Both the position numbers and the translations under genes were made by a program. From positions 1 to 32,373 of the forward strand of contig PWHE01000029.1 in the NCBI GenBank assembly GCA_003554735.1: 32,373 nt of DNA, written 5' to 3'. Origin of the DNA: Mollicutes bacterium (lineage in GTDB: Bacteria > Bacillota_I > Bacilli_A > Izemoplasmatales > Izemoplasmataceae). Below, piece by piece: positions 128 through 19,274 of this stretch (position 1 is its first letter; each line of letters begins with the position of its first letter). The notes under the pieces were generated by a model, which was not told the origin of the DNA, did no database searches, and saw only the letters and a list, made by a program, of their open reading frames with translations.

Positions 128-1111
128 CTATTTGTCGCCCATGGTCATCGTCATGACCGCTTTGGCGGTGTGAAGACGGTTTTCCGCTTCCTGATAAACC
201 ACCGACTGCGGCCCGTCAATGACACTGTCCTCCACTTCATTCCCCCGGTCCGCCGGCAAGGCGTGCATATAGTTGCAATCGGGCTTCGCCCGTTTCATCA
301 TCGCCTCGGTGCACTTCCAATGCCTGTTCGCTTCAAGCGCTTCATCGATCACATCATCGGATTCATTGCTGGCCCATGATCCCCAGTTTTTCGGTATGAT
401 GATGTCCGCGTCCTGGTAGGCTTCTTCCATATTGTTCGTGACCTTGAACGACCCACCGTTCGCTTCGGCGTTCTTGCGCGCTTTGTCAATCACCCATTCC
501 GGCAATTCCCAGCCCTTGGGGTGAGCGAGTACGACATCCATGCCGTAGCGCGGAAACAAAAGCGACTGCGTCAACGGCACACTGATCGGTTTTTTGTGGG
601 AAGTCGCGTACGCCCAGATGATGGATACCTTTATGTTTGAGGTGCGCCCTTTGACCTCCTGGATGGTCATCAGGTCGGCCAGCCCCTGGAAAGGGTGATA
701 AAGGTCGCACTGGAGATTCATCACCGGCACCGATGCATGGCGTTCCATTTCCCTGATGAATGCGTTCCCGCTTTTCCAAAAACAGTTGCGGCACGCAATC
801 GCATGGCCGTAGCTTGAAAGGATGATGGCGGTGTCCTTTCCGGTCTCACCGTGGGAGATTTGCATGGTTGACGTATCGAGGAAGTTTCCGTGTCCTCCAA
901 GCTGCGCGATGCCCGCTTCCATCGAGTTGCGGGTGCGGGTGGATTGTTCAAAGAACATCAGGAAGGACGTTTTGTTTTTGAGATAGTCCGTCGTCTCGTT
1001 GTTGCGGAATTTCTTTTTGAGTTGCTTGGACACTTCGAGCAAGTCGTCGATGCCTTGTCTGTCCCAGTCCTCAAGTGTCACAAAATGTTTGCCTTTATAT
1101 TTCGGTTTCAT
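128..1111 (-). CDS. ygeW: YgeW-like knotted carbamoyltransferase
   Basis: Motifs [30 protein letters not shown] and [19 protein letters not shown] are typical of the carbamoyltransferase family. ATG at 1111 (MKPKYKG) overlaps the upstream stop (ATGA). Cluster context fits YgeW. Confidence 0.85.
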
Positions 1112-2322
1112 TGTTCGCCTCCTTGCTTTTGTCTGAGATACATGCCGGGAATCGCCGCATAGAGTGCTGCCGCTTTCCAAAGGTGATGTTTTTCGGTCTT
1201 TTCGTTCGGTGCGTGGGCTTCGACTTCATGCCCCGGTCCGAAACCGATGCATGGAATGTCGTAGCGCCCCATGATCGAGACCGCATTGGTCGAAAAAGTC
1301 CATTTGTCGATCTTCGGGGTCACATTGAACAGCTTCTCATAGCTTGTCGCCAAGGTTTTGGTCGCAATATGATCTTCGGGAAGGACCCAGTAGGGAAAGT
1401 ATAAATCGGTCGGATAGACGAGTCCGGTGTACGAAGGTTTCTCATAGCGATACATGCTCACTTCCGCGTTTGCCGCCTTGACGGATGGGAGGTTGCGAAT
1501 CTCATCCAGCGCCATTTCATGGGTTTCACCATCGGTAAGACGACGGTCGATCGAAAGCGCGCACCCGTCGGCGACTGCGCAGCGCGAAGGCGACTGCGAA
1601 TAGATTTCGCTGACCGTGAGCGTGCCTTTGCCCAAAAACGGATCGTCTTTGAGCGTATGGTTCAAATCTTCGAGTTCACGCAGAATCGGACCCATTTTGA
1701 AGATGGCGTTATCCCCTCGTTCAGGCGCACTTCCGTGGCAGGATATGCCCGAGGTGGACACCTTGATCTCCATGCGGCCGCGCTGGCCTCTGTAGATATT
1801 GAGCGAGGTCGGTTCGGTGATGACGACGAACTCGGGACGGACGCCTTCTTCTTCGACGATATACTGCCAGCAAAGTCCGTCACAATCCTCCTCTTGCACG
1901 GTGCCGGTGATCAAAAGGGTATAATCGTCCTCAAGTCCGAGGTCCTTGATGATCTTGCCGGCGTACACCATCGCGGCCATGCCGCCTTCTTGGTCCGATG
2001 TGCCTCGACCGCCGACATAGGTATCGTCTTCGAAACCTTCGTATGGATCAAAGTTCCAGTTTTTCATCTCGCCCACGCCGACCGTGTCGATGTGCGCGTC
2101 CATCGCGATCAACGTTTTTCCGTTGCCGATGGTCCCATGGATATTCCCCATTTTGTCGATCCGAATCGTATCGAAGCCGACCGTTTCCATTTCCCTCTTG
2201 ATGCGGTCGATGACCTCGCCTTCCTCAGAGGATTCAGAAGGGATCCGGACCATGTCCCGTAAAAATTTGATGATGTCCTTTTCATAATGTTTCGCCTGTT
2301 TCACAATGTCGTCAAAATTCAA
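1108..2322 (-). CDS. ygeY: YgeY-like M20 family metallo-hydrolase (ArgE/DapE-like deacylase)
   Basis: [37 protein letters not shown] and [15 protein letters not shown] are M20 metal-site motifs. TTG start with upstream AAGGATG. Confidence 0.85.
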
Positions 2323-2328
2323 TGTATA

Positions 2329-3687
2329 TCATCCTTTTCTTTTTTTTGCGATTTTTTCGTTGTACACATGCACTTTGTCGTATTCAGCGTCCCAAAACGC
2401 CATGGATTTCATCGAATCAAGATACGTTCTGGAATAGCCGAATTTGAGCCAATCGTCTTCCTTTTGCTTGAACAAGCGGTCTTTTGCCGCTTGTCCGCGA
2501 GTGTCGATGATGTTGGAGGTGTCCGCCCTTCTGAAGATGTCCTTGAACCAGCGGCGCATCACAAAATCTTCCGTTTCCAAGTAACGTTCTTCAAGATTTT
2601 TCATGACGCTCGCATAGCGGTCAAAACCGTCGGTGGCCACCGTGACGACATTCTCATCGGGGCCGAGGTTGAGATGTTTCGCCATTTTGATCGCACCGAT
2701 GATGTTGAAGATGCCCGAAACACCGAACATGTCCCGCATCGATGCGAACATGTCGGGATCGATGCCATAGTCGGCGAGAACATTTGCACCGTCTCTGAAA
2801 ATTTTCAGTCCGCGGACCGCGTCATCATCAGGAATGAGCGTGATGAAGTCCGTATTCAAAACATTGTGGATGAGGGTGCACATCTTGTCTCCGATGCCTT
2901 CAACACGGTGCTGACCGCGTCCGCCGGTTGCGAGGGTCGAGCATTCATAGGGTTCCAAAGCGGCGATTTTCGCTTCGGGAAACACTTTCTTGACCTGGTC
3001 GCCTGCGGCTAACGTACCCGCTGAACCGGGCGCCGATGCGAAAAGGGCGATGCGGCTGTTTCCGACGCCTTGAACGGCTTCAATGGCGCTATAGCCTGTG
3101 ACGTGGCGGTGAAAACGATAGTTCGGCATCAGTTCAAACTGGGCCAAAGCGACATTTTCCGGTTTTTTATTCATTTCGTGGGTTTTTTCAAGGGTCAATA
3201 TGACGTCTGATTCCGTCCCCGGTGTCAGATCAAGGCTCGCGCCATACCCTTTGATGCGCTCATAGCGTTCCTGGCTCATCGTATCGGGCATGATGATGGT
3301 CGCATCGAATTTCATCAGATTGCAGATGTAGGCGACCCCGATACCGAAGTTGCCTGTGGATGGTCCTAGAATCCTGTGTTTCCCGGGGACGATGGTTCCG
3401 TCCACCGCGCCTTCGATCAGTGTCGAATAGGCGGGACCGACCTTGTGCGATCCGCTCGGAAAGTCCTTGCCGAGCAAAACCACAAGGTTTGCTTCGATCC
3501 CGGTCAGTGACTTCGGGAGTACAATACGGTTGATGGTCGCATCGTCGCGCCGCCAGGTGATATTGAAAAGATTGTAGGGGTCCAGTTCGTTATTTCTTGC
3601 GTTCAGTGCATGCTTGCGCACCGTTACATCCGCTTTCGTTGGATGCAGCATTTCTTCATAGGTTGGTCCGTATGGCATTTTATTCAT
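2329..3687 (-). CDS. Fold-type II PLP-dependent enzyme (cysteine/threonine synthase-like), substrate unknown
   Basis: PLP lysine motif KDFPSGSHKVGPA, GPSTGNFGIGVAY phosphate loop and overall tryptophan-synthase-beta-like layout. Lacks the DGNHG motif expected for YgeX. Confidence 0.7.
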   Translation of the reverse strand: MNKMPYGPTYEEMLHPTKADVTVRKHALNARNNELDPYNLFNITWRRDDATINRIVLPKSLTGIEANLVVLLGKDFPSGSHKVGPAYSTLIEGAVDGTIVPGKHRILGPSTGNFGIGVAYICNLMKFDATIIMPDTMSQERYERIKGYGASLDLTPGTESDVILTLEKTHEMNKKPENVALAQFELMPNYRFHRHVTGYSAIEAVQGVGNSRIALFASAPGSAGTLAAGDQVKKVFPEAKIAALEPYECSTLATGGRGQHRVEGIGDKMCTLIHNVLNTDFITLIPDDDAVRGLKIFRDGANVLADYGIDPDMFASMRDMFGVSGIFNIIGAIKMAKHLNLGPDENVVTVATDGFDRYASVMKNLEERYLETEDFVMRRWFKDIFRRADTSNIIDTRGQAAKDRLFKQKEDDWLKFGYSRTYLDSMKSMAFWDAEYDKVHVYNEKIAKKRKG

Positions 3688-4930
3688 GGGTTCCTCCTTT
3701 ACAATGCATCAGGTCTTTCAGTGCGTCCAAATCGTTGTTCAAGGTCGGAATCGCTTCAATGCGCGCTTTGAGCGCATCCGTATCCTTCAGGCCGTTGCCG
3801 GTATTGATGATGACGACGCTTTCGTCGCATTTTATGATGCCTTGTCTAAGGGCTTCAACGGCTCCGGCAAGCGAGGCGGCCGACGCCGGTTCGGCAAAGA
3901 CGCCTTCGGTTTTGCCGAGTCGTTCACTGGCACTGAGAATGTCACGGTCGCTGACCACCACATAATCGCCTCTTGAGGCTTGGGCGGCCCTCAGTGCCTT
4001 CACAGGATTCCTGGGGCGCGATACCGCGATGCTGTCCGCAAGCGTATCCTCATCCCATTCCCTTAATGGTCTCCCGTCTTTGAATGCTTGATAAAGCGGA
4101 GCGCAGCCTTCGCTTTGTACGCCCAGAAGCCTCGGTATCCGGTCCGTCATACCGATTGAATAAAGGTCGTAAAAGCCGTTATAAAGGGCCCCGATCGAAC
4201 ATCCGTCACCGACACTGATCACAACCCAGTCCGGCACGTTGAATCCTCGTTGTTCCGCAATTTCAAACGCTATCGTCTTTTTCCCTTCGACCATATTGGG
4301 ATTGATCGCGGCGTTACGGTTATACCAACCATAATGTTCGATGGCTTTTTTGGAAAGCGAGAACGCTTCTTTATAATCGCCTTTCACTTTGATGATGGTC
4401 GCGCCATAGGCGTGCAACTGCGTGAGTTTGCCTTTGGGAACACGTTCGGGCACGAAGATGACCGCCTTCAAACCGAGCCGCGCAGCATGTGCCGCAAGCG
4501 ATGACGCGGCGTTCCCCGTTGATGCGCAGGATATGGTGTCGTATCCCGTTTCGAGCGCCTTCATGCAGGCGACAAGCGAAGCACGGTCCTTCATAGAGCC
4601 GCTCGGATTGACGCCGTCATCCTTTATCCAAAGACTCTCAAAGCCAAGTGAAGCGCCGAGCCGGACGCTTTTATAAAGCGGCGTCATGCCGACATGCAGA
4701 GTTTTTGTGCAATCCGTTTCTTTCACGCTCATGAGTGGCCCATAGCGCCATATTGAAAGGTCAGGGTTATCTTTCAAATACTTTCTGTTCATCACCTTCC
4801 TGAGCTTTTCATAATCATAAATCGTGTCAAGAATGCCTTTTTCCTTGCACTTTTCACACGTAAGCACGTATTCATCCTTGTTGTGTATGGTACCGCAAAG
4901 TGTGCATCGATAGTGTTTGACGTATTCCAT
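3680..4930 (-). CDS. Threonine synthase-like fold-type II PLP enzyme with N-terminal zinc-ribbon-like CxxC pair
   Basis: YRCTLCGTIHNK...CEKCKEKG at the N-terminus; PLP motif VNPSGSMKDRAS; CASTGNAASSLAAHAARLGL; overlaps both neighbouring genes. Confidence 0.75.
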   Translation of the reverse strand: MEYVKHYRCTLCGTIHNKDEYVLTCEKCKEKGILDTIYDYEKLRKVMNRKYLKDNPDLSIWRYGPLMSVKETDCTKTLHVGMTPLYKSVRLGASLGFESLWIKDDGVNPSGSMKDRASLVACMKALETGYDTISCASTGNAASSLAAHAARLGLKAVIFVPERVPKGKLTQLHAYGATIIKVKGDYKEAFSLSKKAIEHYGWYNRNAAINPNMVEGKKTIAFEIAEQRGFNVPDWVVISVGDGCSIGALYNGFYDLYSIGMTDRIPRLLGVQSEGCAPLYQAFKDGRPLREWDEDTLADSIAVSRPRNPVKALRAAQASRGDYVVVSDRDILSASERLGKTEGVFAEPASAASLAGAVEALRQGIIKCDESVVIINTGNGLKDTDALKARIEAIPTLNNDLDALKDLMHCKGGTHE

Positions 4931-6648
4931 CAGGAAGACTCCTCAATCTCGACGATTTCGAATTTCTCGACATCGAAAAGGCCACGGTCGGTGATTTTCA
5001 GTGTCGGGATGACGGCCAAAGGAAGAAAGGCAAGTTGAATGAAAGGATCATCGATGGCGTTCGAAAGGCCCATAGAGCGCGTCGTCTTTTTCATCGTCTC
5101 CAATATTTCCGCAACTTGCTCCGGGTCCTGAGCGGTCATGATGCCGCTGATCTCAAGGGGGAGTGAATGAACGATTTCGCCTTCTTTGACCAGTACGATG
5201 CCACCGCCCATTTCGACGATTTTGCGCATGGCCGTTCGCATGGCCTCATCACTGTCGCCGACCATTACGAGATTGTGCGAATCGTGTGCGATGGTCATCG
5301 CGAGGGCGCCATTCTTGAGACCGAATCCCTCTACAAGCGCACTGGCGTGATTGCCGGTTTTGCCATGGCGTTCCACGACAGTGAGCTTCAGAATGTCGTC
5401 ATCGGGATTGTTGACGTACACGCCGTCCTCCACGCTTACGTTGCGAATCAGTTTTTTTGTCGTGATGTTGTTTTTGACCAAGCCGATGACTTTGACCTTG
5501 TCCGTCTTCAAGGGAATGGACAAGTCGATGGATTCAACATCGATGTGTACGGTATTGTGCACACCTTCGTCTCGAACGGTCTCCGTGGTAAAAAGCGCCT
5601 CGCCGCCAGAGGCGACATGCACGCCTTTTTTATACACGTCCCGGGCTTCGATCTTATCAAATGAACCGAATGTGAAAAAATCCGCTTGCCTTCCCGGTGC
5701 GATGGCACCGAGTCTTGAAAGTCCATAACAGTCCGCGGCATTGATGGTAGCCATCTGAATCGCCTTCATTGGCGGGACGCCAAGTCCGATCGCCAGGTTG
5801 ACGTTATGGTTGATATGTCCTTCAAGACGGATATCCTCCGGATGTTTGTCATCGGTGCAAAACAAAGCGCGTCGCATGGTGGCAACGGTGAGGCCGGGCA
5901 CAAGATCACGCACGTTCCGTGTGACCGATCCTTCCCGTAGATGGACATACATGCCTTTGTTGAGGCGGTCTTGCATTTCCTCGATGGTGCTGCATTCGTG
6001 GTCCGTCTGCACACCTGCGAGAATGTAGGCGTTCAAGTCCTTGTCCTTGAGACTCGGGGCATGCCCATCAATCGGACGGTTGTTCATCACAGCAATTTTT
6101 TCATGAATGTCCCTATCGCCGCCAAGGACGGCCGGATAGTTCATCACTTCACCAAGCCCAAGCACATGGTCGTTATCTTTCAATGCGCGGATGTCATCAA
6201 CCGAGATGGTTGCCCCTGCCGTTTCATAGTTCGTGGAGGGGACGCTCGAAGGGATCATGAAGTAGGTGTCTAGCAGATCGTTGCATGACGCCCTCAGCAT
6301 ATATTCGATGCCTTTGACGCCACTCACGTTGGCGATTTCATGAGGATCGGCGATGATGGTCGTGGTGCCCTTAGGGACGACGATACGGGGAAACTGCGCT
6401 GGCGAGACCATCGATGATTCGATGTGAACATGGCCGTCAATGAATCCCGGAGCGACAAAGCGTCCCATGAGATCAACGGTGGTTTCCCCTTCATACCCTT
6501 TACCGATGCCGATGATGATGCCGTCTTCCACTGCGATGTCCATTGTTTCCACGGATTCGTTGAACACATTGATGACTTGGCCGTTTTTGAATACGGTCTG
6601 ACATTTTTGAAGCCCGCGCGCTTTGTCCATTAAACGTTTTTTGTCCAT
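4930..6648 (-). CDS. ade: Adenine deaminase
   Basis: APGFIDGHVHIESSMVSPAQFPRIVVPKGTTTIIADPHEIANV and C-terminal IAHDSHNLVMVGDSDEAM are characteristic of the adenine deaminase (AdeC) family. Start taken at MDKKRL (6648). Confidence 0.9.
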   Translation of the reverse strand: MDKKRLMDKARGLQKCQTVFKNGQVINVFNESVETMDIAVEDGIIIGIGKGYEGETTVDLMGRFVAPGFIDGHVHIESSMVSPAQFPRIVVPKGTTTIIADPHEIANVSGVKGIEYMLRASCNDLLDTYFMIPSSVPSTNYETAGATISVDDIRALKDNDHVLGLGEVMNYPAVLGGDRDIHEKIAVMNNRPIDGHAPSLKDKDLNAYILAGVQTDHECSTIEEMQDRLNKGMYVHLREGSVTRNVRDLVPGLTVATMRRALFCTDDKHPEDIRLEGHINHNVNLAIGLGVPPMKAIQMATINAADCYGLSRLGAIAPGRQADFFTFGSFDKIEARDVYKKGVHVASGGEALFTTETVRDEGVHNTVHIDVESIDLSIPLKTDKVKVIGLVKNNITTKKLIRNVSVEDGVYVNNPDDDILKLTVVERHGKTGNHASALVEGFGLKNGALAMTIAHDSHNLVMVGDSDEAMRTAMRKIVEMGGGIVLVKEGEIVHSLPLEISGIMTAQDPEQVAEILETMKKTTRSMGLSNAIDDPFIQLAFLPLAVIPTLKITDRGLFDVEKFEIVEIEESS

Positions 6649-6652
6649 ACCT

Positions 6653-7504
6653 TCACTCCTTCGAGGCAATCTGTCTAAGAAACGCCTCAAGCAGATTCAT
6701 TGCGACTTTTTTGCGATAGGAACGGTTGCTTCGCTGATCATCGATCGGCTGGATATGCGGCTCATAGGCTTCAAGAATTTGCGGGATTTTTTCCTTTAGC
6801 TGATGGATGGATTGACCGCGTAACATGTGTTCGACGGATTTATCCTTGATGACCGTGGCGGCGACGGCACCGATCGCGATGCGGATATCTTTGATGATTC
6901 CCTTTTCATGACGGACGGCGCCTGCGAACGATGTTTTCGATATGGAGTCGGAAGCACGGCCGCCGACTTTGTTGAACACCGTGTAATCAAAAGCGTCGTC
7001 ATGAAGCTGGATTTCTTTAATCATTTCATCGCTTCTTCTGTCCGTTGTCCCAGGTCCCTTCACGTAATCATTGATGCGCACTTTTCGGACGCCTTCAGCA
7101 TTCACAAGCACGATGACACCATCCAGAAGATACGTGATCAGCAGACCATCGCCGGCCGGCGATGCATTGCCGATGTTGCCGCTCAATGTCGCCATGTTGC
7201 GGATGGCCGGCGAGGCGAAAAGGTGCAGGCATTCTTTCATGACGGAAGGAACATGCTCGTGATAGAGCAAGCTTTCAAGCGACGTGGTCGCACCTATTCT
7301 TAACACATTATTCTCACGTTTGATGTAGTCAAGCGCTTCGAGCGAACGGACATAGAGCATATTCTTCTTGAAATCAAGGCGGGTTTCGCTCCAAGCCCGG
7401 TTCTTCACCATCAGGTCCGTGCCTCCGTTGATGATCTGATAGTCGCCCTTCGCCAAATGTTCAAGCGCCTCGTCCAATGATTTGGGAATGACATTGTCTA
7501 CCAT
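6653..7504 (-). CDS. Molybdenum hydroxylase FAD-binding (medium) subunit, set A
   Basis: INGGTDLMV, ASPAIRNMATLSGNIGNASPAGD motifs of the XDH/CO dehydrogenase FAD subunit. Confidence 0.85.
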   Translation of the reverse strand: MVDNVIPKSLDEALEHLAKGDYQIINGGTDLMVKNRAWSETRLDFKKNMLYVRSLEALDYIKRENNVLRIGATTSLESLLYHEHVPSVMKECLHLFASPAIRNMATLSGNIGNASPAGDGLLITYLLDGVIVLVNAEGVRKVRINDYVKGPGTTDRRSDEMIKEIQLHDDAFDYTVFNKVGGRASDSISKTSFAGAVRHEKGIIKDIRIAIGAVAATVIKDKSVEHMLRGQSIHQLKEKIPQILEAYEPHIQPIDDQRSNRSYRKKVAMNLLEAFLRQIASKE

Positions 7505-7971
7505 AGGCCCTCACCTTCCTTGGCTGCGCGGCGGATGGCGTTGAAGATCATGTTGTAGCCCGTGCACCGGCAAAGATTGCCCGAGAGTCCGTGACGGATC
7601 TCGTCGTAGGAGGGGGCGGGATTGTTTTTAAGCAAGTATTCGGTGGCCATGACCATGCCCGGGGTACAAATGCCGCATTGTGAGGCGCCCTCTTTCAAAA
7701 AGGCCGTTTCGATGGCTTTGAACTTTTTCGTCTTTTTGTAGCCTTCGATGGTCATGACGGTTTTACCGTCGACCGATGCAAGCGGCAAAATGCAGCTTTG
7801 CACGATCTTGCCGTCGAGCAGCACACTGCACGCACCGCACTCGCCTTCGCCGCACCCTTCTTTCGCACCGGTCAAGCCGAGTTCCTTGCGCAAAACGTCA
7901 AGGAACCGGCGGTCCGCTGAAAGTTCACTGCGTATGGGTTTTCCGTTCAGAATGAAATCAATGGTCTTCAT
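7498..7971 (-). CDS. Molybdenum hydroxylase 2Fe-2S (small) subunit, set A
   Basis: GCGEGECGACSVLLDG and SQCGICTPGMVM...GNLCRCTGYNMI, two [2Fe-2S] motifs. Confidence 0.92.
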   Translation of the reverse strand: MKTIDFILNGKPIRSELSADRRFLDVLRKELGLTGAKEGCGEGECGACSVLLDGKIVQSCILPLASVDGKTVMTIEGYKKTKKFKAIETAFLKEGASQCGICTPGMVMATEYLLKNNPAPSYDEIRHGLSGNLCRCTGYNMIFNAIRRAAKEGEGLW

Positions 7972-10057
7972 GATTCATCAGCTCCATGAGGTGCTCGGGT
8001 GTGGCGGGGATTTTGTAGATGCGCCGGCCGATGGCCTGCTCAATTGCGAGCGCCACCGAAGGAGCACCGCCCACAAGCGTCAGTTCACCGGCGCCTTTCG
8101 CTCCGTACGGCCCAAGCGGGTAGGGGTTGTCAATTAACTTGTTGTGCATCCGTGGCGTGTCCGCCGCGGTCGGGATGATGTAGTCGGTAAGGTTCTTTTG
8201 AAGCAGTTTTCCGGCATTATGTTCCATTTTCTCAAGCGTCGCGTAACCTACCGCCTGAGCCTGGCCGCCATCGGCCTGCCCCAGAACGACACGTTCGTCG
8301 ATGGCTTTGCCAACATCATAGATGTTCCACATGTCTTTGACCTTCACTTCATAAGTGTTCGGGTCAACCGCCACTTCTGTCACGTTGATGCCCCAGGAGT
8401 AAGCGGGATAGGCGTCGCCTGTCATGGTGTCTTGGTCCCACTTGACATAATCGGGCTGTCGGTATGATTCCTCCACGACGAGTTCCTGTCCGCTGACCCA
8501 TTGCTCGGAGAGTTTCCGCGTCGCTCTGGCAACAAGACCGCCGACGACCATCATGGTTCGCGAAGCGACAGTGGGTCCGCTGTCGGTGACATAGCGGGTA
8601 TCGGGATTCTTGAAGTGCACGTTTTCAATCGGGATTTCCAGCAGGGATGCGACCAGTTTTCGCATCGTCGTTTTCGGACCTTGCCCCATATCGACGGCTG
8701 CGATCAGGATATGGACGTCATCCTTGTCATCCTTTTTCAAACGGATGCGGGCACGGATTTTCTCCTGTTCTCCGCTGCCTGTGAACCCACAACCGTGCAA
8801 GAACCAGCTCATGCCGATACCCTTGAAGACATCGGGATCCTGATAGGCCTTGTGTTTTTCATGATAAGCGGAATCCTCCATGATTGTCTCAAGCATCTCG
8901 TTGAGCAGAATCGGATCTCTGAAGACGCCGCCCGTGGCGGTCAAATCCCCTTGAGCGGCCATATGGCGCATTTTGTACTCAAGCGGATTCTCACCGAGGT
9001 CTTCGGCGATGTGATTGATGAACATTTCAATCGCGAAAATCATCTGTGGAGCACCGAAGCCTCTGAACGCACCGTTTGGTACGGTATTGGTCAGATAGAC
9101 GTCCCCTTTGCAGTTGACGTGATCAATCGTATAGGCGTTTGTGACTGCGAGCATGCCTCGGGAAAGCACCACTTGCGAGAGCCCCATATAGGCGCCGCCA
9201 TCGATGCCGATGTGACTGCGGATGCCCCGGATGTGCCCCGTTTCGTCAACAGCCGCTTCCATGTGTATTTTGGCCGGATGACGTTTGGTGGTCACTTCCA
9301 TGTCCTCTTCACGTTCAAAGACGAGTTTGATGGGCTTGCCGACCTTCGCCACGGCCACCGCAAGCTGACAGCCGATCAATGAGGGATATTCTTCTTTTCC
9401 ACCAAACGCGCCGCCGACAGCCGCTTGGATGACGCGGACCTTGTCATCGTCCATCCCCATGGTTGTTTTGACGGCGTTTTTTACATAATACGGACATTGA
9501 ATCGAGCCGATCAGTGTGACGCCATCGTTTTCGGGATAGCCGATGAAACCTTGCGGTTCGATGTAGGTCTGTTCCTGGTAGGATGTCTCATAGCCGTATG
9601 TGATGATCTTATGCGCCTTTTTGAAGGCGTGCTTGGGATTTCCTTTGGTAAATTCAAGCGCTTTGTGCGAGTCGCTGAGGTCAAAGACCGGGGTCTGTTC
9701 GTCATACGTGATCTTGACATCCCCGACAATGTCCTTGATGACTTCCTTGTCGGGACCCACAATCAGCATGATGGGTTCACCGATGTGATTGACCGAATTT
9801 TCTGCGAAAACGGGCCAATCCTCGTGCAGCATGTGCACGTAGTTCTCTGCGGGTATGTCGGCCGCATCCACGGTATAATACCCTTTCGGCATGGAAGGGA
9901 TGCTGATGTGTCTGATTCTCCCTTTGGCGATGGTGCTACGTATCGTCTTGGCATAAAGCATGCCTTCCATGGTGATATCCGATGTATATATGGCTTCGCC
10001 GGATATCTTTTCGCGGCCTTCGACGTTGTCGATCGATTTCGAGATATCGCGTTTCAT
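7958..10057 (-). CDS. Molybdenum hydroxylase large (molybdopterin-binding) subunit, set A; xanthine-dehydrogenase-like
   Basis: VGGAFGGKEEYPS, GAFRGFGAPQMIF, GAKGAGELTLVGG. Likely start MKRDISKSIDNVEG at 10057, not 10174 as in the ORF track. Confidence 0.88.
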   Translation of the reverse strand: MKRDISKSIDNVEGREKISGEAIYTSDITMEGMLYAKTIRSTIAKGRIRHISIPSMPKGYYTVDAADIPAENYVHMLHEDWPVFAENSVNHIGEPIMLIVGPDKEVIKDIVGDVKITYDEQTPVFDLSDSHKALEFTKGNPKHAFKKAHKIITYGYETSYQEQTYIEPQGFIGYPENDGVTLIGSIQCPYYVKNAVKTTMGMDDDKVRVIQAAVGGAFGGKEEYPSLIGCQLAVAVAKVGKPIKLVFEREEDMEVTTKRHPAKIHMEAAVDETGHIRGIRSHIGIDGGAYMGLSQVVLSRGMLAVTNAYTIDHVNCKGDVYLTNTVPNGAFRGFGAPQMIFAIEMFINHIAEDLGENPLEYKMRHMAAQGDLTATGGVFRDPILLNEMLETIMEDSAYHEKHKAYQDPDVFKGIGMSWFLHGCGFTGSGEQEKIRARIRLKKDDKDDVHILIAAVDMGQGPKTTMRKLVASLLEIPIENVHFKNPDTRYVTDSGPTVASRTMMVVGGLVARATRKLSEQWVSGQELVVEESYRQPDYVKWDQDTMTGDAYPAYSWGINVTEVAVDPNTYEVKVKDMWNIYDVGKAIDERVVLGQADGGQAQAVGYATLEKMEHNAGKLLQKNLTDYIIPTAADTPRMHNKLIDNPYPLGPYGAKGAGELTLVGGAPSVALAIEQAIGRRIYKIPATPEHLMELMNHEDH

Positions 10058-10058
10058 G

Positions 10059-11156
10059 CTATCCACCCAACCCTTTGCCGAGCATGGTGATGGCATTCGT
10101 CGGGCAAATGGAGACACAATGGCCGCATGAGAAACATTTCTCGGCGTCAAACATGATTCGTTCTTTGAATTCAATGGCGAAATACGGGCAGGTTTTTACA
10201 CAGAGCATGCATTCGATGCAGCGTTCCTTGATAAGCTCCGGCAGTTCGTCAGTGTAGGTCACGTCGTTTTGAAGATCGGTGTCGATCACTTCCTGAACTG
10301 ATGAGAAACCATATTTGTCAAGGGCGGCGGGAAGGTCGTCGATGATTTTCTTGTACAGCTGTTTGCCTTTGAGGAGTGCGCCCGATAGCATCTGCACCGC
10401 CGAGGCTCCGGCAAGCAAAAACTCGATGATGTCATCGGCGCTTTGGATGCCGCCCACGCCGATCACATTCAGGTCGGGTTCAGCTTGCTTGATCTTATAG
10501 ACCACACCAAGCGCGAGGTTCTTGATGAGCGGACCGGTGGTCCACGCAAACCCGTCCTCGGCGCCGTATTCAATGCGGCGTTGAGCGATGTTGATGTTCA
10601 ACGTCGGACCGAGCGAATTGATGGCGACGACACCGTTCGCACCAGCTTCCTTGATGGCTTTCGCAAAGCCTTCGGGGTCCGGGAGATGCGGGCTGATTTT
10701 CATGTAGACCGGCTTATCCGTATGCGCCCGGATGGTTTTCACCGTAGCGGCGATGACACTGAGGTCAGTGCCCACATAATGGGTCGACACTTCAAAGGCG
10801 TCCGCAAACGCATCCAGTGTCGGGATCAGTGTTTCCATATCCGCTTTTGAGTATCCGACGGACACGATAAGGGGTCGGTCGTTGTTCTTTTTGAAGTTGG
10901 GAAGAAACGATTCCGTCCAGTCCTCCAATGCGTGCTCACTCCAGAGTTCCGAGTTCATGACATGGTTTTTCCCGGCCTTGATGCAAGGTTTGGGGATGGT
11001 CGGCAGTTTGGTGGAGATGGTCTTGGTGACCACGGCACCGCAACCGGCGTCATCACGCATGAACAATAGTTTTTCAAGATCGCCGACAAGGGGACCGCTT
11101 GCGGGCATGAGCGGATTGGAAAGCGTCATGCCGTCGAATGGGGTTTTCAGGTTCAT
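10059..11156 (-). CDS. PreA-like dihydroorotate/dihydropyrimidine dehydrogenase with C-terminal 2x[4Fe-4S] ferredoxin domain
   Basis: DHOD-like barrel (MNLKTPFDGMTLSNPLMPASGPLVGD; GVGGIQSADDIIEFLLAGASAVQ) followed by CIECMLCVKTCP and CFSCGHCVSICPTNAI. Confidence 0.85.
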   Translation of the reverse strand: MNLKTPFDGMTLSNPLMPASGPLVGDLEKLLFMRDDAGCGAVVTKTISTKLPTIPKPCIKAGKNHVMNSELWSEHALEDWTESFLPNFKKNNDRPLIVSVGYSKADMETLIPTLDAFADAFEVSTHYVGTDLSVIAATVKTIRAHTDKPVYMKISPHLPDPEGFAKAIKEAGANGVVAINSLGPTLNINIAQRRIEYGAEDGFAWTTGPLIKNLALGVVYKIKQAEPDLNVIGVGGIQSADDIIEFLLAGASAVQMLSGALLKGKQLYKKIIDDLPAALDKYGFSSVQEVIDTDLQNDVTYTDELPELIKERCIECMLCVKTCPYFAIEFKERIMFDAEKCFSCGHCVSICPTNAITMLGKGLGG

Positions 11157-12463
11157 TTTGAATCACCGACTTCCTTTTCAATGGTATGCCAGACCGTTTC
11201 CGCGCGTGATCTTGCCTGACGATATAGCGTTTCAGCCGATCGGTCAATCGTGTAGTTGCTGACCAATTGTCGGCCGCCTATAAAGACATGAGAGGGCTTG
11301 AAGCTGCTGAATGCGCCAAAGAACAGATGACCGAGGGCGTTCGCCTTGTGAATCGGGGTGGGCGGAATATAAGGCAGCATGAGCATGTCCGCCTCATAGC
11401 CGGGTGAAAGTTTTCCAAGCCGGATGCCAAAACGATCCGATGCATACGCGTAGGTATCCTTGATGATCCGTTCAAGGTCATCAAGGCCAAAGGCTTCCGG
11501 CGTGTTTTCTTTGACGTGTTGGGTGAAGAACAGATTGAGATACTCCGTGGTGACCGATGAAGACAAACCGTCGTTGCCGATGATGACGGGGATGCCTTTC
11601 CTGCGTAAAAGCGCATAGTTCGGAACGTCAATTCCGTTGTTCATGTTGGACCCCGGATTGAGCGCGACGACGCACTGGCGTTTTTTGAGGATGTCTGCCT
11701 CGTTTTCATCAATATACAGTGCGTGGGTGATGATGCTTCCCGCATTGAGCAGCCCGTGTCTGTCAAGTCGCTCAATCACGCGTTCGCCATACTTCTCAAC
11801 ACAGTCGTCCTCATCCATTTTGTCCTCGGCGACATGAATATGGATGGGCGCATCGCCAAGGTTCGCCTTGACTTTCTTCAGTGTCTCCTCGCTCAAGGTG
11901 AGTGAGGCGTGCAAACCGAAAAGCCCTTGATGCATGGTGCTTTTCGTCTGCATAAAGGCGCGGTTCTCCGCAATGCATGCATCCACGTCGAAACGGTCGG
12001 AGGTTTCAAATGCGTAACAGCCACGGACACCGACCGTATCGGTCATCGCCTCTTTCAGTGTGGCGAGCGAATCCTTGATGGTGCCGGAGGCGTGATGGTC
12101 GATGATCGTGGTCACGCCGTTTTTCAGGTGGTCCACGGCATTGACAATGCCCGAATAAAAGATTGAATCTCTAGTGAGCCGCTTATCAAGACGCCACCAC
12201 TGTCCTTCGAGGATATCCATGAAATCGTTGTATTCGAAATCGTTCAGCCACCCACGGGCGAATGTGGAATAAACATGGGTGTGCCCCACAATCATCGATG
12301 GCATGAGCATTGTGTCCTTGCCGTCGATGATCTCATAGCCCCGGTCGATGAAATCCTCCATCGACCCTTTTTCAATGATTGTCTCATCGAAGACCACATA
12401 ACCGTGTTCGTGAAAATCGTGGTAATCATAGACAATCGCGTTAATGATCGCTTTTTTCTTCAT
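11153..12463 (-). CDS. ssnA: SsnA-like amidohydrolase (putative purine/guanine-type aminohydrolase)
   Basis: MIVGHTHVYSTFARG, TTIIDHHASG, HIHVAEDKMDEDDC, VIIGNDGLSSS, typical of the SsnA/ATZ family. Start MKKKAI at 12463 preceded by GGGGAGA. Confidence 0.85.
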   Translation of the reverse strand: MKKKAIINAIVYDYHDFHEHGYVVFDETIIEKGSMEDFIDRGYEIIDGKDTMLMPSMIVGHTHVYSTFARGWLNDFEYNDFMDILEGQWWRLDKRLTRDSIFYSGIVNAVDHLKNGVTTIIDHHASGTIKDSLATLKEAMTDTVGVRGCYAFETSDRFDVDACIAENRAFMQTKSTMHQGLFGLHASLTLSEETLKKVKANLGDAPIHIHVAEDKMDEDDCVEKYGERVIERLDRHGLLNAGSIITHALYIDENEADILKKRQCVVALNPGSNMNNGIDVPNYALLRRKGIPVIIGNDGLSSSVTTEYLNLFFTQHVKENTPEAFGLDDLERIIKDTYAYASDRFGIRLGKLSPGYEADMLMLPYIPPTPIHKANALGHLFFGAFSSFKPSHVFIGGRQLVSNYTIDRSAETLYRQARSRAETVWHTIEKEVGDSK

Positions 12464-13697
12464 TGAGCAATCTCCCCTTTCCACCCAGGAACGTGCGATC
12501 TTTCATGATGAAACGTCCCCGGGACATGGTGCATTTGACGTGGCCCTTGACGGGCTGGTTCAGATACGGGTTGTAATCGGTCGCGTTATGAAACGTATCG
12601 ATGGTGCGGTCGGTTTCCTCGTAGATGAACAGATCGGCATCATAGCCTTCCTTGATGCGGCCCTTTTTGGGAAGCCGCATCTTTTGGGCGACATTGCGCG
12701 TCATTTTGTCGATGATGGAAGGACCGAAGCGGGCATACATGATGTCAAAAGCCTGTTCGACGCCTGGGATACCAAGCGGCATGTCAATCAGTCTTTCATT
12801 GTGTTTGTCCGCTTTGTTAAAGGCACAGTGATCGGTGCCGATGGTACCGATCGAGTCTATATTTCCAATCAGGGTTGTTCGCTCTTTTTCACTCCGCAAA
12901 GGCGGTGCGAAGGTGAAATAGCGGCCTTGATCATTTTTGAGCATCTTCGTTGAAAAGGTAAAGTATTGCGGGCAACTCTCGACGTGAAAGCGACGATTCA
13001 GAATGCCTGAAAACCGCTCTTTGAGACGTTCGATCGTATGACCGCTGCTAAGATGCACCATGTAGAGCTCCCCGTGCGTACGATTGACAAGTTCAGCAAG
13101 CGCGAGCGCTTCACTGGTTTCGCTTTCGCTCGGACGCGAGCGGGGGAGATCTTGATGCGTATAGGTTTCATCCAACGTAATCATCGCGTCATTCTCGATG
13201 TGCGCAAGCAACAAAAACGGATAGTGGTTTTGAAGCCCGAGCAAAGTCTCGATGGTTTCACGGTCGCTCATCCGCCCCGATTCCGAATACGTCGTGAACA
13301 CTTTGAGCGAATCAAGCTTCAAATCGCGCATCGTCATGACATAATCCTTCAAATCGCAATCAGTCGACTTGAGTGTAGCGTGAAATTTGTGATCAAGGCA
13401 AGCATCGGAGGCTTCCTTTTTTCTTTTATCGTATGTCTCACGGAGCGACCGGGGTGAATCCGAAGGGTCGAGAAAATCAAGGAACGTGGTCACACCGCCG
13501 AATGCGGCCGCTTTCGAGCCGGTGTGAAAATCGTCACGCGAGACATATCGGCCCAGGTCGAGTGAAAAATGGACGTGCGGATCGATGATCCCCGGAATGA
13601 CAAGATTCCCTTCGGCGTCATACGTTGAGTCGCACGCTTCGATTGTCTTTTTCAAAGCGACGATGCGACCGTCACTGATGTAGACGTTAAGCGGCAC
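12441..13697 (-). CDS. Dihydropyrimidinase/hydantoinase-family amidohydrolase
   Basis: VIPGIIDPHVHFSLD, LKVFTTYSESG (carboxylated-Lys region), IGTDHCAF. The true start is probably upstream of the GTG at 13697 (see findings). Confidence 0.85.
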   Translation of the reverse strand: MPLNVYISDGRIVALKKTIEACDSTYDAEGNLVIPGIIDPHVHFSLDLGRYVSRDDFHTGSKAAAFGGVTTFLDFLDPSDSPRSLRETYDKRKKEASDACLDHKFHATLKSTDCDLKDYVMTMRDLKLDSLKVFTTYSESGRMSDRETIETLLGLQNHYPFLLLAHIENDAMITLDETYTHQDLPRSRPSESETSEALALAELVNRTHGELYMVHLSSGHTIERLKERFSGILNRRFHVESCPQYFTFSTKMLKNDQGRYFTFAPPLRSEKERTTLIGNIDSIGTIGTDHCAFNKADKHNERLIDMPLGIPGVEQAFDIMYARFGPSIIDKMTRNVAQKMRLPKKGRIKEGYDADLFIYEETDRTIDTFHNATDYNPYLNQPVKGHVKCTMSRGRFIMKDRTFLGGKGRLLNEEKSDH

Positions 13698-13756
13698 AAA
13701 GCGTCCTTCCTGATAGACGCGGCCGTTAATGATCCCTTTGTCGTAGATAATCCCAC

Positions 13757-14230
13757 CTACTCTCTCAATAGTGTGTATGTACGCACCCCGAAGGTCACTT
13801 CGAAGGCATCAAGCAAATCCTCCCTGACGACCAGCACGAGGTCGCGATTGGACTCGATCGCTCGCCGGATCAGCGGGTAGAACCCTTTCCGGTTGACTTC
13901 AAGCAATCCGACTTCATCAAAATAAAGCGGCTCGACATCCTTTTCAAGCAGCGCCTCGAACGTTTCCTCAACCCACTGCATGGCCGGTGCGCTCAGATGG
14001 TAGGGACCGATGACTTCATGAGTTTCAAAGGAGGGACCCATGTCGTCGGCATGCGTGATGAGGCAGCGGCGCTCAGCGGTCGAGAGTCGTCTCATGTGAT
14101 AGGTCGAAGGCCTACCTTTTTTCATGGTCTTTTCGCTTACGAACCCGTCGCCTTGTCGCCTTGTTTCATAATGGCGCAGAAGTCGGCTCGATTTACCGGC
14201 GTTAATCCTCCCAGTAACGATGCTTATCAT
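13757..14230 (-). CDS. P-loop NTPase resembling the THEP1 nucleoside-triphosphatase family
   Basis: Walker A-like VTGRINAGKSS and Walker B-like LYFDEVGLLEVNRKG; small size. Confidence 0.6.
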   Translation of the reverse strand: MISIVTGRINAGKSSRLLRHYETRRQGDGFVSEKTMKKGRPSTYHMRRLSTAERRCLITHADDMGPSFETHEVIGPYHLSAPAMQWVEETFEALLEKDVEPLYFDEVGLLEVNRKGFYPLIRRAIESNRDLVLVVREDLLDAFEVTFGVRTYTLLRE

Positions 14231-15068: not shown

Positions 15069-15704
15069 TTAGATGAAATATGAAACAACCAGCGCCAACG
15101 TCAAAGCAAGTGGCGCCAAGGAAGGGTGTAAACGCATTTCGCGCAACGACGGTGCGGCGATTTTGTTGATCAATATGAAAATCAATACACCCACCACGGC
15201 GCTGATCAGCCCCTCAATGAGCGTGAACGTAGCGAATGCTTGCATGGTTGCAAGGTGTGGGCTGAAAAATTCGATGGGCGAGGCGATGAGAGCCTGATGC
15301 CAAAGCATATATGCCGCTCGCCAACCGATGGACGCGAGTACAAAACCGCCTGCAAGCGAGGGGAGCGTCTTTTTGTTCAGCATGCCAACGGCTCCGATGA
15401 CGACAAGACTTTGCAGAATGATGGAGGCCATCGGGTTGGTGACGCTGAACGTCGGTACGGGTGTCAATAGATTCACCGACTTGATGGCGGCAGCGATGAT
15501 GGCGACCATCAGCATGGCACGTCGGCTCGGAAGCCGGCGATACGATGTCACTAGAACGGCAGCGCCGATCGGGAACATGACGCTCCCTGCGATGAACGGA
15601 ACTGGAATCAAGTGAAGCGCGAAACCAAGCGTCGCTTCCAGGATGCCCCAGAGTGCTCCGAAAAATATAACATGGCTCAGAAATTTCATGGTTTTGATAT
15701 TCAT
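15069..15704 (-). CDS. Uncharacterised polytopic membrane protein
   Basis: Several long hydrophobic segments. Its start overlaps the stop of the upstream Mo subunit (ATGA). No family recognised. Confidence 0.7.
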   Translation of the reverse strand: MNIKTMKFLSHVIFFGALWGILEATLGFALHLIPVPFIAGSVMFPIGAAVLVTSYRRLPSRRAMLMVAIIAAAIKSVNLLTPVPTFSVTNPMASIILQSLVVIGAVGMLNKKTLPSLAGGFVLASIGWRAAYMLWHQALIASPIEFFSPHLATMQAFATFTLIEGLISAVVGVLIFILINKIAAPSLREMRLHPSLAPLALTLALVVSYFI

Positions 15705-18025
15705 TGTCTATCCTTCTCCTTTTGTTTGATCCCCATCAGGATTTTCTCAGGGGTGATTGGTAAGGTGGTGATGCGAACGCCCGTTGCGTTATAAATCGCA
15801 TTTGCCAAAGCCGCGGGCGGGGGGTCGATGCCGATTTCACCGGCGGATTTTGCGCCATAGGGGCCGCTGTCTTCGTAACTGTCCGCGAATTCCGTCCGCA
15901 GACGGTTGATCTCTTTTTGGGAAGGAATCTTGTAATTCAGAAAATCGCCGGTGATGTTCTTCCCTTTTTTCGACATGTGGTATTCCTCATAGGTGGCCAT
16001 GCCGATGCCTTGGACAATGCCGCCTTCAATCTGACCTTGCGCAAGCTTCGGATTGATGGTCGTGCCGACATCGACGACGCTTGTGTAATCAAGGATGTCG
16101 AACTCGCCGGTTTCCCTGTCGACCATCACTTCCACAAAACCGGCCATGAATGGCGGTGGCGACTTGTGTCCGACGTATGAATGCGTGGCGGTCAGCTGTT
16201 GTTGTTCGTCATTGTAAGTTAAGGTGTTTGAAAGTTTGGACAAGGTGACACTCGACCCGCTTGAATCGGTGAACGTACGACCGTCGAAATCGATCGATTC
16301 GACGTCACATTTGAGCATGCGGGCGGCTTCGCGGATCATCATATCCCGGAGTTTGGAAGCCGCTTTGTAAACAGCGTTTCCACTGACGTATGTCGTGCTT
16401 GAGGCATACGCACCGGTGTCAAAGGGCGTGAGGTCGGTATCCGAGGAATAGACGACCACGTGTTTCAGTTCACACCCGAGCGCTTCGGCAGCGATTTGCG
16501 CCAGTACGGTATCGCTTCCCTGTCCGATTTCGGTGGCGCCGATGGTAAGATTGTAAAAGCCGTCATCGTTGAGTTTGATGGTCGCCGCCCCCATATCGAT
16601 GAAGGGTATGCCGCTTCCTTGCATCGCGATGGCCATGCCGACGCTCCGGACTTTCGAATCTTCTACTTTTTTGGGGTGCTTCCCTCTCCAGTCGGTCAAC
16701 TCAAGCCCACGTTTGAGACAATATTCGAGCTTACAGGACTCCATGTCCATCGCCGTGCCTTCGGTCCCTTCCCCCATGACTTCAAAGATTTTCGAGGTTT
16801 CGCCCTCTTTGATCATGTTTTTCTCTCTGAGTTCCACCGGGTCCATGCCGAGTTTCTCCGCAAGCATGTCGATGATGCTTTCAAGCGCGAAGTTGCCTTG
16901 AACGGCCCCATAGCCTCTGAAGGCGCCGGCGGGCATCCGGTTGGTATAGACGATATCGCCGTGGAAACGAACTGCGTCCACCTTGTTGTAAAGCGGAAGC
17001 ACTTTGGAGCCGGTGACCATATAGACGGTGAGCGCATGCTCCCCATACGCTCCGGTGTCCGATAACCCATAGACATCGAGGGCGGTTATTTTCCCGTCTT
17101 TGGTGGCGCCGATTTTAAAATCGAGACGCATACGATGGCGGGAATACGTCGACTCGAACACTTCCTTGCGCGTATAGACCATCTTGGACGCTTTGCCGGT
17201 GCGCAGCGTCACCGCCGCACAGAGCATCTCGCCATGCAGTGCCTGCTTTCCTCCGAATCCGCCACCGACCCTGGGTTTGATGACGCGGATTTTATGAATC
17301 GGAACCTCAAGGGTCTGCGAGAGAATCCTTCGGACATGAAACGGTGTCTGCGTAGAAGAAAACATGAGCAAACGATCGTTATAGTCGATCTCCGCATGCA
17401 CCGCATGCGGTTCCATCATGGCGTGTGCCTGCGGGGTTGTGTGAAAGGATTCTTCCACAACGACATCGCTATCGTCAAGGGTTTTGCCGACGTCTCCGAT
17501 TTCCATGTGGTAGGCGGCTGCGAGGTTGCGTTTCGGATCGAAACCGATCGGAAACATCTCATGGATGTCGTCTTCCGGGTGGACACGCACCTTGTGGTCC
17601 TTGGCGCCTTCAAAATCGAGTACGGGATCATAGACCTCGAAGTCGACCTTGATCGCGTCCAAAGCTTTCAGAGCGGTCGCTTCATCCACCGCTGCCACCG
17701 CACAGACCTCATCACCGACGTGACGTACATACTCATCAAGCACAAACTTGTCGTGTGGGGAAGGCTCCGGATAACCCTGCCCTGCCCGTGTGTAGGCGTT
17801 GCGTTTGAAATCTTTGTGGGTAAGCACGATTTCAACACCCGGGAGTTTTTTCGCTTCGCTTACGTCAATGTGAGTGATTTTCGCGAACGCGTGCGGCGAA
17901 CGCATCACTTTGATGATCAGCGCATCCTTCGGCGCAAAGTCCTCTGTGAATGCTTTTCGTCCCATCATGATGCCTTTTCCGTCTATGGATGGATTGAATG
18001 TGTTCACGACATTCGTCTTTTTCAT
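15701..18025 (-). CDS. Molybdenum hydroxylase large (molybdopterin-binding) subunit, set B
   Basis: VGGGFGGKQALHGE, GAFRGYGAVQGNFALES, GPYGAKSAGEIGIDPPPAALANAI. Start at MKKTNVV (18025), ATGA overlap. Confidence 0.88.
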   Translation of the reverse strand: MKKTNVVNTFNPSIDGKGIMMGRKAFTEDFAPKDALIIKVMRSPHAFAKITHIDVSEAKKLPGVEIVLTHKDFKRNAYTRAGQGYPEPSPHDKFVLDEYVRHVGDEVCAVAAVDEATALKALDAIKVDFEVYDPVLDFEGAKDHKVRVHPEDDIHEMFPIGFDPKRNLAAAYHMEIGDVGKTLDDSDVVVEESFHTTPQAHAMMEPHAVHAEIDYNDRLLMFSSTQTPFHVRRILSQTLEVPIHKIRVIKPRVGGGFGGKQALHGEMLCAAVTLRTGKASKMVYTRKEVFESTYSRHRMRLDFKIGATKDGKITALDVYGLSDTGAYGEHALTVYMVTGSKVLPLYNKVDAVRFHGDIVYTNRMPAGAFRGYGAVQGNFALESIIDMLAEKLGMDPVELREKNMIKEGETSKIFEVMGEGTEGTAMDMESCKLEYCLKRGLELTDWRGKHPKKVEDSKVRSVGMAIAMQGSGIPFIDMGAATIKLNDDGFYNLTIGATEIGQGSDTVLAQIAAEALGCELKHVVVYSSDTDLTPFDTGAYASSTTYVSGNAVYKAASKLRDMMIREAARMLKCDVESIDFDGRTFTDSSGSSVTLSKLSNTLTYNDEQQQLTATHSYVGHKSPPPFMAGFVEVMVDRETGEFDILDYTSVVDVGTTINPKLAQGQIEGGIVQGIGMATYEEYHMSKKGKNITGDFLNYKIPSQKEINRLRTEFADSYEDSGPYGAKSAGEIGIDPPPAALANAIYNATGVRITTLPITPEKILMGIKQKEKDRQ

Positions 18026-18474
18026 TTCAATCCCTCCAGATACTTTTTGACGGCCTGAACCTGTGAATGGTAGCCGGTGCACCGGCAAAGATGACCGGTG
18101 AGGTAGTGACGTATGGTATCTTCATCCGCATCCGGCGCTTCGTTTGAAAGGGCATAGACGCTCAACGCGATGCCGGGATTGCAAAATCCGCACTGATCCG
18201 CGCCTTCACCACCAAAGAATCCGGCCAATCTTGCCGCATGGTCCTGGACGCCTTCGACTGTTGTGATGGTTTTTCCCTCGGCGCGTGCACTCAAGTATGT
18301 GCACGATGGGACGGGTTTGCCTTCAACCAGTATCGTGCACACCCCGCAACTCGTTGAATCGCATCCGCGGCGCACACTTATGAAATCATGGTCTCTCAGG
18401 GTGTCGAGCAGCACGTCGCCCGGTTGAATCTCCAACACCCTTTTTCTCCCGTTGATCGTGGCATGAAGTTTCAT
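18022..18474 (-). CDS. Molybdenum hydroxylase 2Fe-2S (small) subunit, set B
   Basis: GCDSTSCGVCTILVEG and DQCGFCNPGIALSV...GHLCRCTGYHSQ. Confidence 0.92.
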   Translation of the reverse strand: MKLHATINGRKRVLEIQPGDVLLDTLRDHDFISVRRGCDSTSCGVCTILVEGKPVPSCTYLSARAEGKTITTVEGVQDHAARLAGFFGGEGADQCGFCNPGIALSVYALSNEAPDADEDTIRHYLTGHLCRCTGYHSQVQAVKKYLEGLK

Positions 18475-19274
18475 GTTCTCCCCTCCTCGAGCATAAAAAG
18501 ACCGCGCCGAACATACACGTATGCAAGGTGCTTGCGATACGCTTCGCTGGCGCGGTGATTATCACCGAATCTGACCGCTTCTGCGGCCTTTTCGGCGGCT
18601 TTTTCTATGGTGGTTTCATCATTGTCAACAGACCCGTTCAAAACAGCCATGGCATCCATGGCAAGGACGGCACGCGCGGGACGCGAACCTAAAGCGATTC
18701 GGGTTTGTCCGTCAGTCTTGGTGATCGTGATGTTGAGCACAGCAAAATCGAGCGCGGTCTTACGGACTTTCTTGAAATATCCGCAACCGGCTTTTGAAGG
18801 GATGTTCACTGAAACGAGGATGTCGTCGGTCCGACCCTTCCGCTCGAGAAATTCGGCTAGGGAAACTTCGCCTTCCTTGAAAAATTCCAGACGGGCGTCC
18901 ATACAAAGCAAAGGACCGAGTAAATCGGAAAATCCGTATTTACCGACGACGCTTCCGCCGATGGTGGCGATGTTCCTGAGTCCGACACCGACAATCTGTG
19001 CGGCGGCGTGAGGCAAGATTCCATTGAAGATGCGCTTCAGGACATCGCTGGTTTCGATGTCGCGAAGGGGGGTCATGCTGCCGATGGCAACGACACCGTC
19101 GCGTTCGTCAATGGCATCCAGCCCAAGACCGCTCAGGTCGATGGCCTCCTCGAGTGTCCTGGATGAGAACTTCATCCATGCGCCGCCACCGATGATGGCC
19201 GCGTCCGAGGAACGCTCCAGACGTTCATAAGCGTCTGCGAGCGATGATGCCTTATGAAAGTTTTGGATCTTCAT
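18471..19274 (-). CDS. Molybdenum hydroxylase FAD-binding subunit, set B
   Basis: IIGGGAWMKF, LRNIATIGGSVVGKYGFSD motifs, located directly before the 2Fe-2S subunit. Confidence 0.85.
   Translation of the reverse strand: MKIQNFHKASSLADAYERLERSSDAAIIGGGAWMKFSSRTLEEAIDLSGLGLDAIDERDGVVAIGSMTPLRDIETSDVLKRIFNGILPHAAAQIVGVGLRNIATIGGSVVGKYGFSDLLGPLLCMDARLEFFKEGEVSLAEFLERKGRTDDILVSVNIPSKAGCGYFKKVRKTALDFAVLNITITKTDGQTRIALGSRPARAVLAMDAMAVLNGSVDNDETTIEKAAEKAAEAVRFGDNHRASEAYRKHLAYVYVRRGLFMLEEGRT

Follow-up and report, generated by a model that had tools for sequence, protein, structure and literature searches.

The locus and its gene content

The window, meaning the whole stretch of DNA that was analysed, is a contig of 32,373 nucleotides from a 1.29 Mb Izemoplasmataceae assembly that is 82% complete. 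It carries a minus-strand cluster in which two adjacent genes, plpB (2329..3687) and plpA (3680..4930), encode fold-type II PLP enzymes. PlpA, 416 aa long, is a zinc-ribbon, threonine-synthase-like protein (PF00291, 276 bits), and PlpB, 452 aa long, is cysteine-synthase-like (PF00291, 74 bits). The genes share 8 nt, ATGAATAA, and a strong Shine-Dalgarno sequence, AAAGGAGG, lies ahead of the plpB start. They are flanked by adenine deaminase (4930..6690; TIGR01178, 594 bits, cut-off 472) and by YgeY, the M20 hydrolase that acts in reductive uric acid degradation (1108..2322; TIGR03526, 682 bits, cut-off 321). An earlier note on this DNA had described the two overlapping PLP genes between these neighbors; the coordinates and curated scores agree with it, PF00291 matches both proteins, and the motifs it named were found, SGSMKDR in PlpA and SGSHKVG in PlpB.

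Read 5' to 3' on the minus strand, the cluster starts with a MocA-like gene and a three-subunit molybdenum hydroxylase (15701..19274). The latter is the second of two xanthine-dehydrogenase-like enzymes in contig numbering, with Mo/Fe-S/FAD subunits, and was recognised from gene order and from its Mo subunit, which scores 629 bits with NF043082, below the cut-off. There follow YqeB-like and ATPase-like genes, a HyuA-like D-hydantoinase (12441..13697; TIGR02033, 215 bits, under the cut-off of 393), an SsnA-like aminohydrolase (11153..12484; NF005540, 352 bits, under the cut-off of 444) and a UacX-like dihydroorotate-dehydrogenase/4Fe-4S reductase (10059..11156; TIGR01037, 155 bits, below cut-off, with a ferredoxin domain). 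The other molybdenum hydroxylase (6653..10174; FAD/Fe-S/Mo subunits), assigned from the resemblance of its translations and conserved as a block in relatives, then leads into adenine deaminase, PlpA, PlpB, YgeY and a carbamoyltransferase (128..1111). A conserved small membrane protein, possibly a transporter component, is encoded between the YqeB-like gene and the upstream hydroxylase (15069-15704) and recurs in one relative (G056).

In the reductive pathway uric acid is reduced to yanthine, whose rings are opened to give 2,3-diureidopropionate; this is trimmed to 2,3-diaminopropionate (DAP), which YgeX then cleaves (PMC12507026). As judged from sequence, the gene content of the window is that of this pathway in its UacX form (Li et al. 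2025, PMC12507026): XDH, yanthine reductase, SsnA, HyuA, YgeY and carbamoyltransferase are all present together, some of them below curated cut-offs. By analogy with Clostridioides difficile UacX (PMC12507026), the UacX-like reductase would reduce yanthine. The assumption in the earlier note that the cluster includes YgeW did not hold by the curated models. The carbamoyltransferase in the YgeW position is OTC-like, unlike the knotted YgeW, and scores 182 and 194 bits against YgeW cut-offs of 500 and 453 (TIGR03316 and NF005538); with the ornithine carbamoyltransferase model it reaches 255 bits (cut-off 281). One relative (G031) has YgfK where UacX is expected and a true YgeW (765 bits) where the OTC-like enzyme is expected, and the type of reductase and the type of carbamoyltransferase may change in step.

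Expression of such clusters has been recorded in cultured relatives. Izemoplasma zrk13 co-induces a cluster with genes for "threonine synthase", "cysteine synthase", OTC, adenine deaminase and XDH (PMC8397711), and an XDH cluster of Hujiaoplasma zrk29 is up-regulated with DNA and RNA (PMC10470597). Matched by gene names, both are taken to be clusters of the PlpA/PlpB type. Izemoplasmatales have been found to degrade DNA in sediments and have XDH loci beside purine deaminases (PMC8289736).

Sequence and structure of PlpA and PlpB

The AlphaFold2 model of PlpA (pLDDT 91.9) has threonine synthases as its nearest solved folds, and the protein is 34-38% identical to solved ThrCs. It has a zinc ribbon (C9/C12/C25/C28) and a PLP lysine, K114, and its PLP apparatus (K114, T377 and the STGN loop) is intact. 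The NSVNPxR motif is present in all four closest solved threonine synthases. In the 127 PlpA sequences compared, the position of its Arg (213) is occupied by Leu, Met, Thr or Cys and never by Arg, and the position of its Ser is mostly Ala. In the Thermus thermophilus enzyme this Arg and Ser contact the substrate phosphate. D242 and K217 are invariant in the same 127 sequences, at positions where ThrC has Asn and Gln. PlpA scores above the TIGR00260 thrC cut-off (224.6 against 167.1) and below that of NF006050 (292 against 303). Homoserine dehydrogenase had no match in the host genome (82% complete assembly) or in two relatives assembled as one contig each (G040, G044), and among the 61 genomes described below it is found in just 8 of the 41 that have PlpA. 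In the Bacillota_A sample PlpA orthologs score 508-623 bits, and other matches to the PlpA profile in the same genomes reach at most 360 bits.

The nearest folds to the PlpB model (pLDDT 93.7) are cysteine and cyanoalanine synthases, to which PlpB adds ~60 N-terminal and ~90 C-terminal residues. Its PLP apparatus (K82, S324 and the STGN loop) is also intact; K82, within SGSHKVG, was found in 160 of 161 sequences, the remaining one being gapped. With the cysK models it scores 126 bits (cut-off 351). The other PALP enzymes of the host are a bona fide CysK above cut-off, TrpB and a D-cysteine-desulfhydrase-like protein; trpB adjoins the gene for the last of these on host contig C1 (51408-53869).

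PlpB occurs in two ancient types of ~450 and ~490 aa that are interchangeable beside a conserved PlpA. Two genomes (G031, 12601-14112; G016, 1421-2905) keep PlpA and have a PlpB of the divergent type, with ~35% identity. The closest PlpB genes in named relatives belong to Candidatus Izimaplasma, Acholeplasmataceae, Mycoplasmatota MAGs and strain zrk2, whose genome is complete; accordingly the host is most likely a wall-less bacterium resembling Izemoplasmatales. In Bosea and Rhizobium, distant homologues (35-36%; L039, 11596-13401, and L040, 11899-13398) are carried by conjugative plasmids, close to TauE/SafE exporters, and on the Bosea plasmid RidA, an enamine deaminase, and pyruvate carboxylase are also close by, a context that is at most suggestive. 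At two loci an arylmalonate-decarboxylase/hydantoin-racemase-like protein, a PreA-like reductase and DUF6282 come after PlpB, which stands without PlpA in one (L102, 9995-17017) and with it in the other (L121, 8691-14141); these gene sets possibly belong to a related, uncharacterised N-heterocycle pathway. The neighborhoods with PlpB only in several other genomes, and most of those in L249 and L256, had no pathway in common.

Distribution of the pair and of ygeX

The central claim of the earlier note, that the pair sits in the place of YgeX, is supported by the distribution of the genes. In the whole host assembly (82% complete) the best TIGR01747 score is 28 bits against a ygeX cut-off of 274, and the DGNHG motif is absent from PlpA and PlpB, which have STGN instead. 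An order-level sample was made of the host and 60 relatives, from the same genus to the same order. PlpB is present in 42 of these 61 genomes, every one of which has YgeY, and YgeY is in none of the other 19; PlpA is present in 41, the three mismatches between PlpA and YgeY involving genes at contig ends; ygeX is found in none of the 61. The order AdeC-PlpA-PlpB-YgeY-carbamoyltransferase recurs in nearly all relatives' loci examined. As the AdeC-PlpA-PlpB-YgeY order and the pairing are kept in ~40 related genomes, the arrangement is not a matter of chance. The earlier note had held that a ygeX elsewhere in the genome, together with threonine or cysteine synthesis by the pair, would speak against its proposal; what was found is no ygeX, no match to homoserine dehydrogenase, a separate CysK and a PlpA without the ThrC Arg/Ser motif.

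A second sample was taken from Bacillota_A, where 399 evenly drawn genomes gave 88 with YgeY, the strongest 80 of which were analysed. Both Plp genes are present in 66 of these and neither in 10, nine of which have ygeX. The ygeX gene occurs in 25 of the 80, the pair is found in 52 of the 55 that lack it, and a single genome is without all of plpA, plpB and ygeX. Across the 80 genomes the pair and ygeX are anti-associated (p=8e-5) and PlpA and PlpB are associated (p=2.5e-9). Two genomes (G342 and G424) have PlpA and lack both PlpB and ygeX. The gene adjoining PlpA there could have hinted at the role of PlpB, but on translation it resembles a regulator of the LuxR type that carries a membrane domain.

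Among GTDB genomes a scan gave at least 579 relatives of PlpB, and PlpA with PlpB was found in purine-degradation clusters of Chloroflexota, Acidobacteria, Bacteroidota, LCP-89, Calditrichia, Tissierellia, Moorella and Clostridia. Only 4 of 50 named PlpB genomes have ygeX. Six genomes (L099, G113, G251, G475, G322 and G364) hold ygeX and the pair in one cluster; thus the replacement is not strict and the pair may do something that YgeX does not. In four Chloroflexota (L140, L123, L126 and L131) the purine clusters contain carbamoyltransferase, carbamate kinase, PlpA, a glycosyltransferase-family gene and PlpB, and in L140 a second carbamoyltransferase-like match was present and no YgeY was seen. 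A small helix-turn-helix/cupin protein, a possible pathway regulator, adjoins PlpA or PlpB in ~30 loci (for example L267, 4109-4666).

The arrangement of the two genes also bears on whether they form one enzyme. With type-1 PlpB the usual order is PlpA then PlpB (53 adjacent loci), and with type-2 PlpB it is mostly PlpB then PlpA (15 adjacent loci), many pairs being separated. The correlation of pairwise distances between PlpA and PlpB (r=0.48) was the lowest of six comparisons, against r=0.82 for YgeY and carbamoyltransferase. These opposite orders and the weak coevolution disfavor an obligate PlpA-PlpB heteromer, and the heteromeric enzyme suggested in the earlier note loses ground accordingly. 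From the same two observations the pairing seems to have had two or more origins, and this supports a functional link between PlpA and PlpB but not a dedicated complex.

Candidate reactions and known enzymes

Enzymes of serine metabolism recur in the clusters. L-serine ammonia-lyase and/or SHMT are found in 15 of 73 pair loci with no ygeX in the locus, where a rough genome-size estimate predicts ~0.95 of 73 (P ~1e-13 under that estimate). Neither enzyme was present in the five ygeX loci examined, a small control, or is listed in the E. coli cluster region. In five Bacillota_A clusters (G215, G181, G188, G148 and G180) sdaB-sdaA lies after PlpB, and in thirteen Bacillota_A loci SHMT is inside the cluster; one of the five (G180) has the order PlpA-SHMT-PlpB-SdaB-SdaA-GntR-YgeY-carbamoyltransferase. 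A window-type cluster from Bacilli (L105) runs PlpA-PlpB-YgeY-carbamoyltransferase-SdaA, this L-serine ammonia-lyase scoring 351 bits (cut-off 345). The simplest reading of these enzymes is that the pair yields L-serine, and the two-step or beta-replacement route raised in the earlier note fits this context. Two points count on the other side. First, only about one-fifth of loci have serine enzymes close to the pair. Second, C. acidurici uses SHMT and L-serine dehydratase to run from glycine through serine to pyruvate (PMC3519856); the clue is thus not specific to DAP and could mark a glycine route.

The role of PlpA and PlpB as an alternative terminal module is well supported. It is probable that this module consumes DAP at the end of reductive uric acid and purine degradation, in hosts that usually lack YgeX. 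With slightly less than an even chance, the two enzymes have a new specificity, DAP to L-serine, and make up an end of anaerobic purine degradation that forms serine and had not been recognised before. Taken whole, the explanation in which a terminal module consumes DAP and makes L-serine is evenly poised. The substrate, the product and the assignment of steps to PlpA or PlpB are what we infer from gene context. HyuA, YgeY and carbamoyltransferase would leave DAP, and PlpA and PlpB would consume it. Water would take the place of the 3-amino group by way of a PLP-bound aminoacrylate, much as it is added by threonine synthase, one Plp enzyme inverting or activating and the other substituting. 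Two enzymes would be needed because D-configured intermediates are expected, and the serine that L-serine ammonia-lyase and SHMT act on is the L form. HyuA is D-stereospecific, E. coli YgeX is reported to be equally active on D- and L-DAP (PMC12507026), and the ureido intermediates have been proposed to be R-configured (PMC12990295). The serine formed would give pyruvate, or glycine and a C1 unit.

The acceptance of both isomers by E. coli YgeX, set beside the stereospecificity of HyuA, also suggests a split of the YgeX reaction itself (DAP to pyruvate and 2 NH3) into two enantiomer-specific lyases, or a lyase and a racemase. This rather doubtful reading agrees with the pair's place in the ygeX slot, its anti-association with ygeX and the RidA gene near the distant PlpB homologue on the Bosea plasmid; it leaves unexplained the L-serine ammonia-lyase and SHMT genes and the clusters with both ygeX and the pair. 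Those mixed clusters would be accommodated if the pair acted on another intermediate, such as albizziin or some other ureido amino acid, or a product of other purines, with an unrecognised enzyme cleaving DAP in YgeX-less genomes. The pair of Moorella-like genomes, found with XDH and HyuA, often with carbamoyltransferase and in most examined loci with no SsnA or YgfK, points the same way, as does PlpB alone beside the racemase-like protein, PreA-like reductase and DUF6282 (L102). It is nevertheless unlikely, the pair being present in nearly all YgeX-less YgeY+ genomes and no other shared candidate having been seen at the loci.

The cysteine-synthase fold of PlpB and the induction by thiosulfate of the cluster of similar content in Izemoplasma zrk13 (PMC8397711) could indicate that DAP is turned into a sulfur amino acid, for example cysteine, by PlpB or PlpA, with beta-replacement of ammonia by sulfide or thiosulfate. 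The ordinary CysK of the host, the induction of the corresponding XDH cluster by added DNA or RNA in another cultured relative (PMC10470597) and the serine-related cluster context make this improbable. That PlpA and PlpB are ordinary biosynthetic threonine and cysteine synthases, in the cluster by chance, draws on the TIGR00260 score of PlpA and is largely refuted by the scarcity of homoserine dehydrogenase, the loss of the ThrC motif, the wide bit-score gap between PlpA orthologs and other matches, the low cysK score of PlpB and the separate CysK, leaving it a very slim chance.

In the published pathway YgeX is the last enzyme, yet about two-thirds of the sampled YgeY+ Bacillota_A genomes are ygeX-less and nearly all of those have the pair, which is commoner than YgeX in this sample and spans many anaerobes of several phyla. 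A published neighborhood survey (PMC12507026) used the broad family PF00291 to count YgeX; since PF00291 also covers PlpA and PlpB, that survey cannot separate YgeX from the pair. If PlpA and PlpB make serine from DAP, carbon from uric acid and DNA purines would enter pyruvate, glycine and one-carbon metabolism. Predictions of energy yield and products would then change for gut bacteria that degrade uric acid and for sediment Izemoplasmatales that feed on DNA, and genes now annotated as threonine synthase or cysteine synthase would be corrected.

Compared with YgeX (TIGR01747; PMC12507026), the pair is likewise of fold-type II, adjoins YgeY in a reductive uric acid cluster and plausibly shares DAP as substrate. 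However, two unrelated subfamilies take the place of one enzyme, are often near serine enzymes and can coexist with YgeX. PlpB has the fold, the S-x-K and STGN motifs and the catalytic-core order of CysK, beta-cyanoalanine synthase and SbnA, but it is far below all NCBIfam cut-offs, carries terminal extensions and conserved GSHKVG and GxHxxxGIGDK motifs, and is accompanied by a separate CysK in the genome. PlpA shares with ThrC (TIGR00260; 2zsj, 6nmx, 1uim) the fold, zinc ribbon, PLP lysine and STGN loop; it differs in the absence of the NSVNPxR Arg, in having Asp242 for Asn and Lys217 for Gln, and in its location among purine-catabolism genes. ThrC-like folds have been recruited to other reactions before. 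In OrtB (2-amino-4-oxopentanoate thiolase; 66 bits for PlpA, cut-off 550) the fold serves a thiolytic reaction, and in cysteate synthase (9k3c), a zinc-ribbon ThrC-like enzyme with 22% identity to PlpA, it likewise serves another reaction at the beta-carbon.
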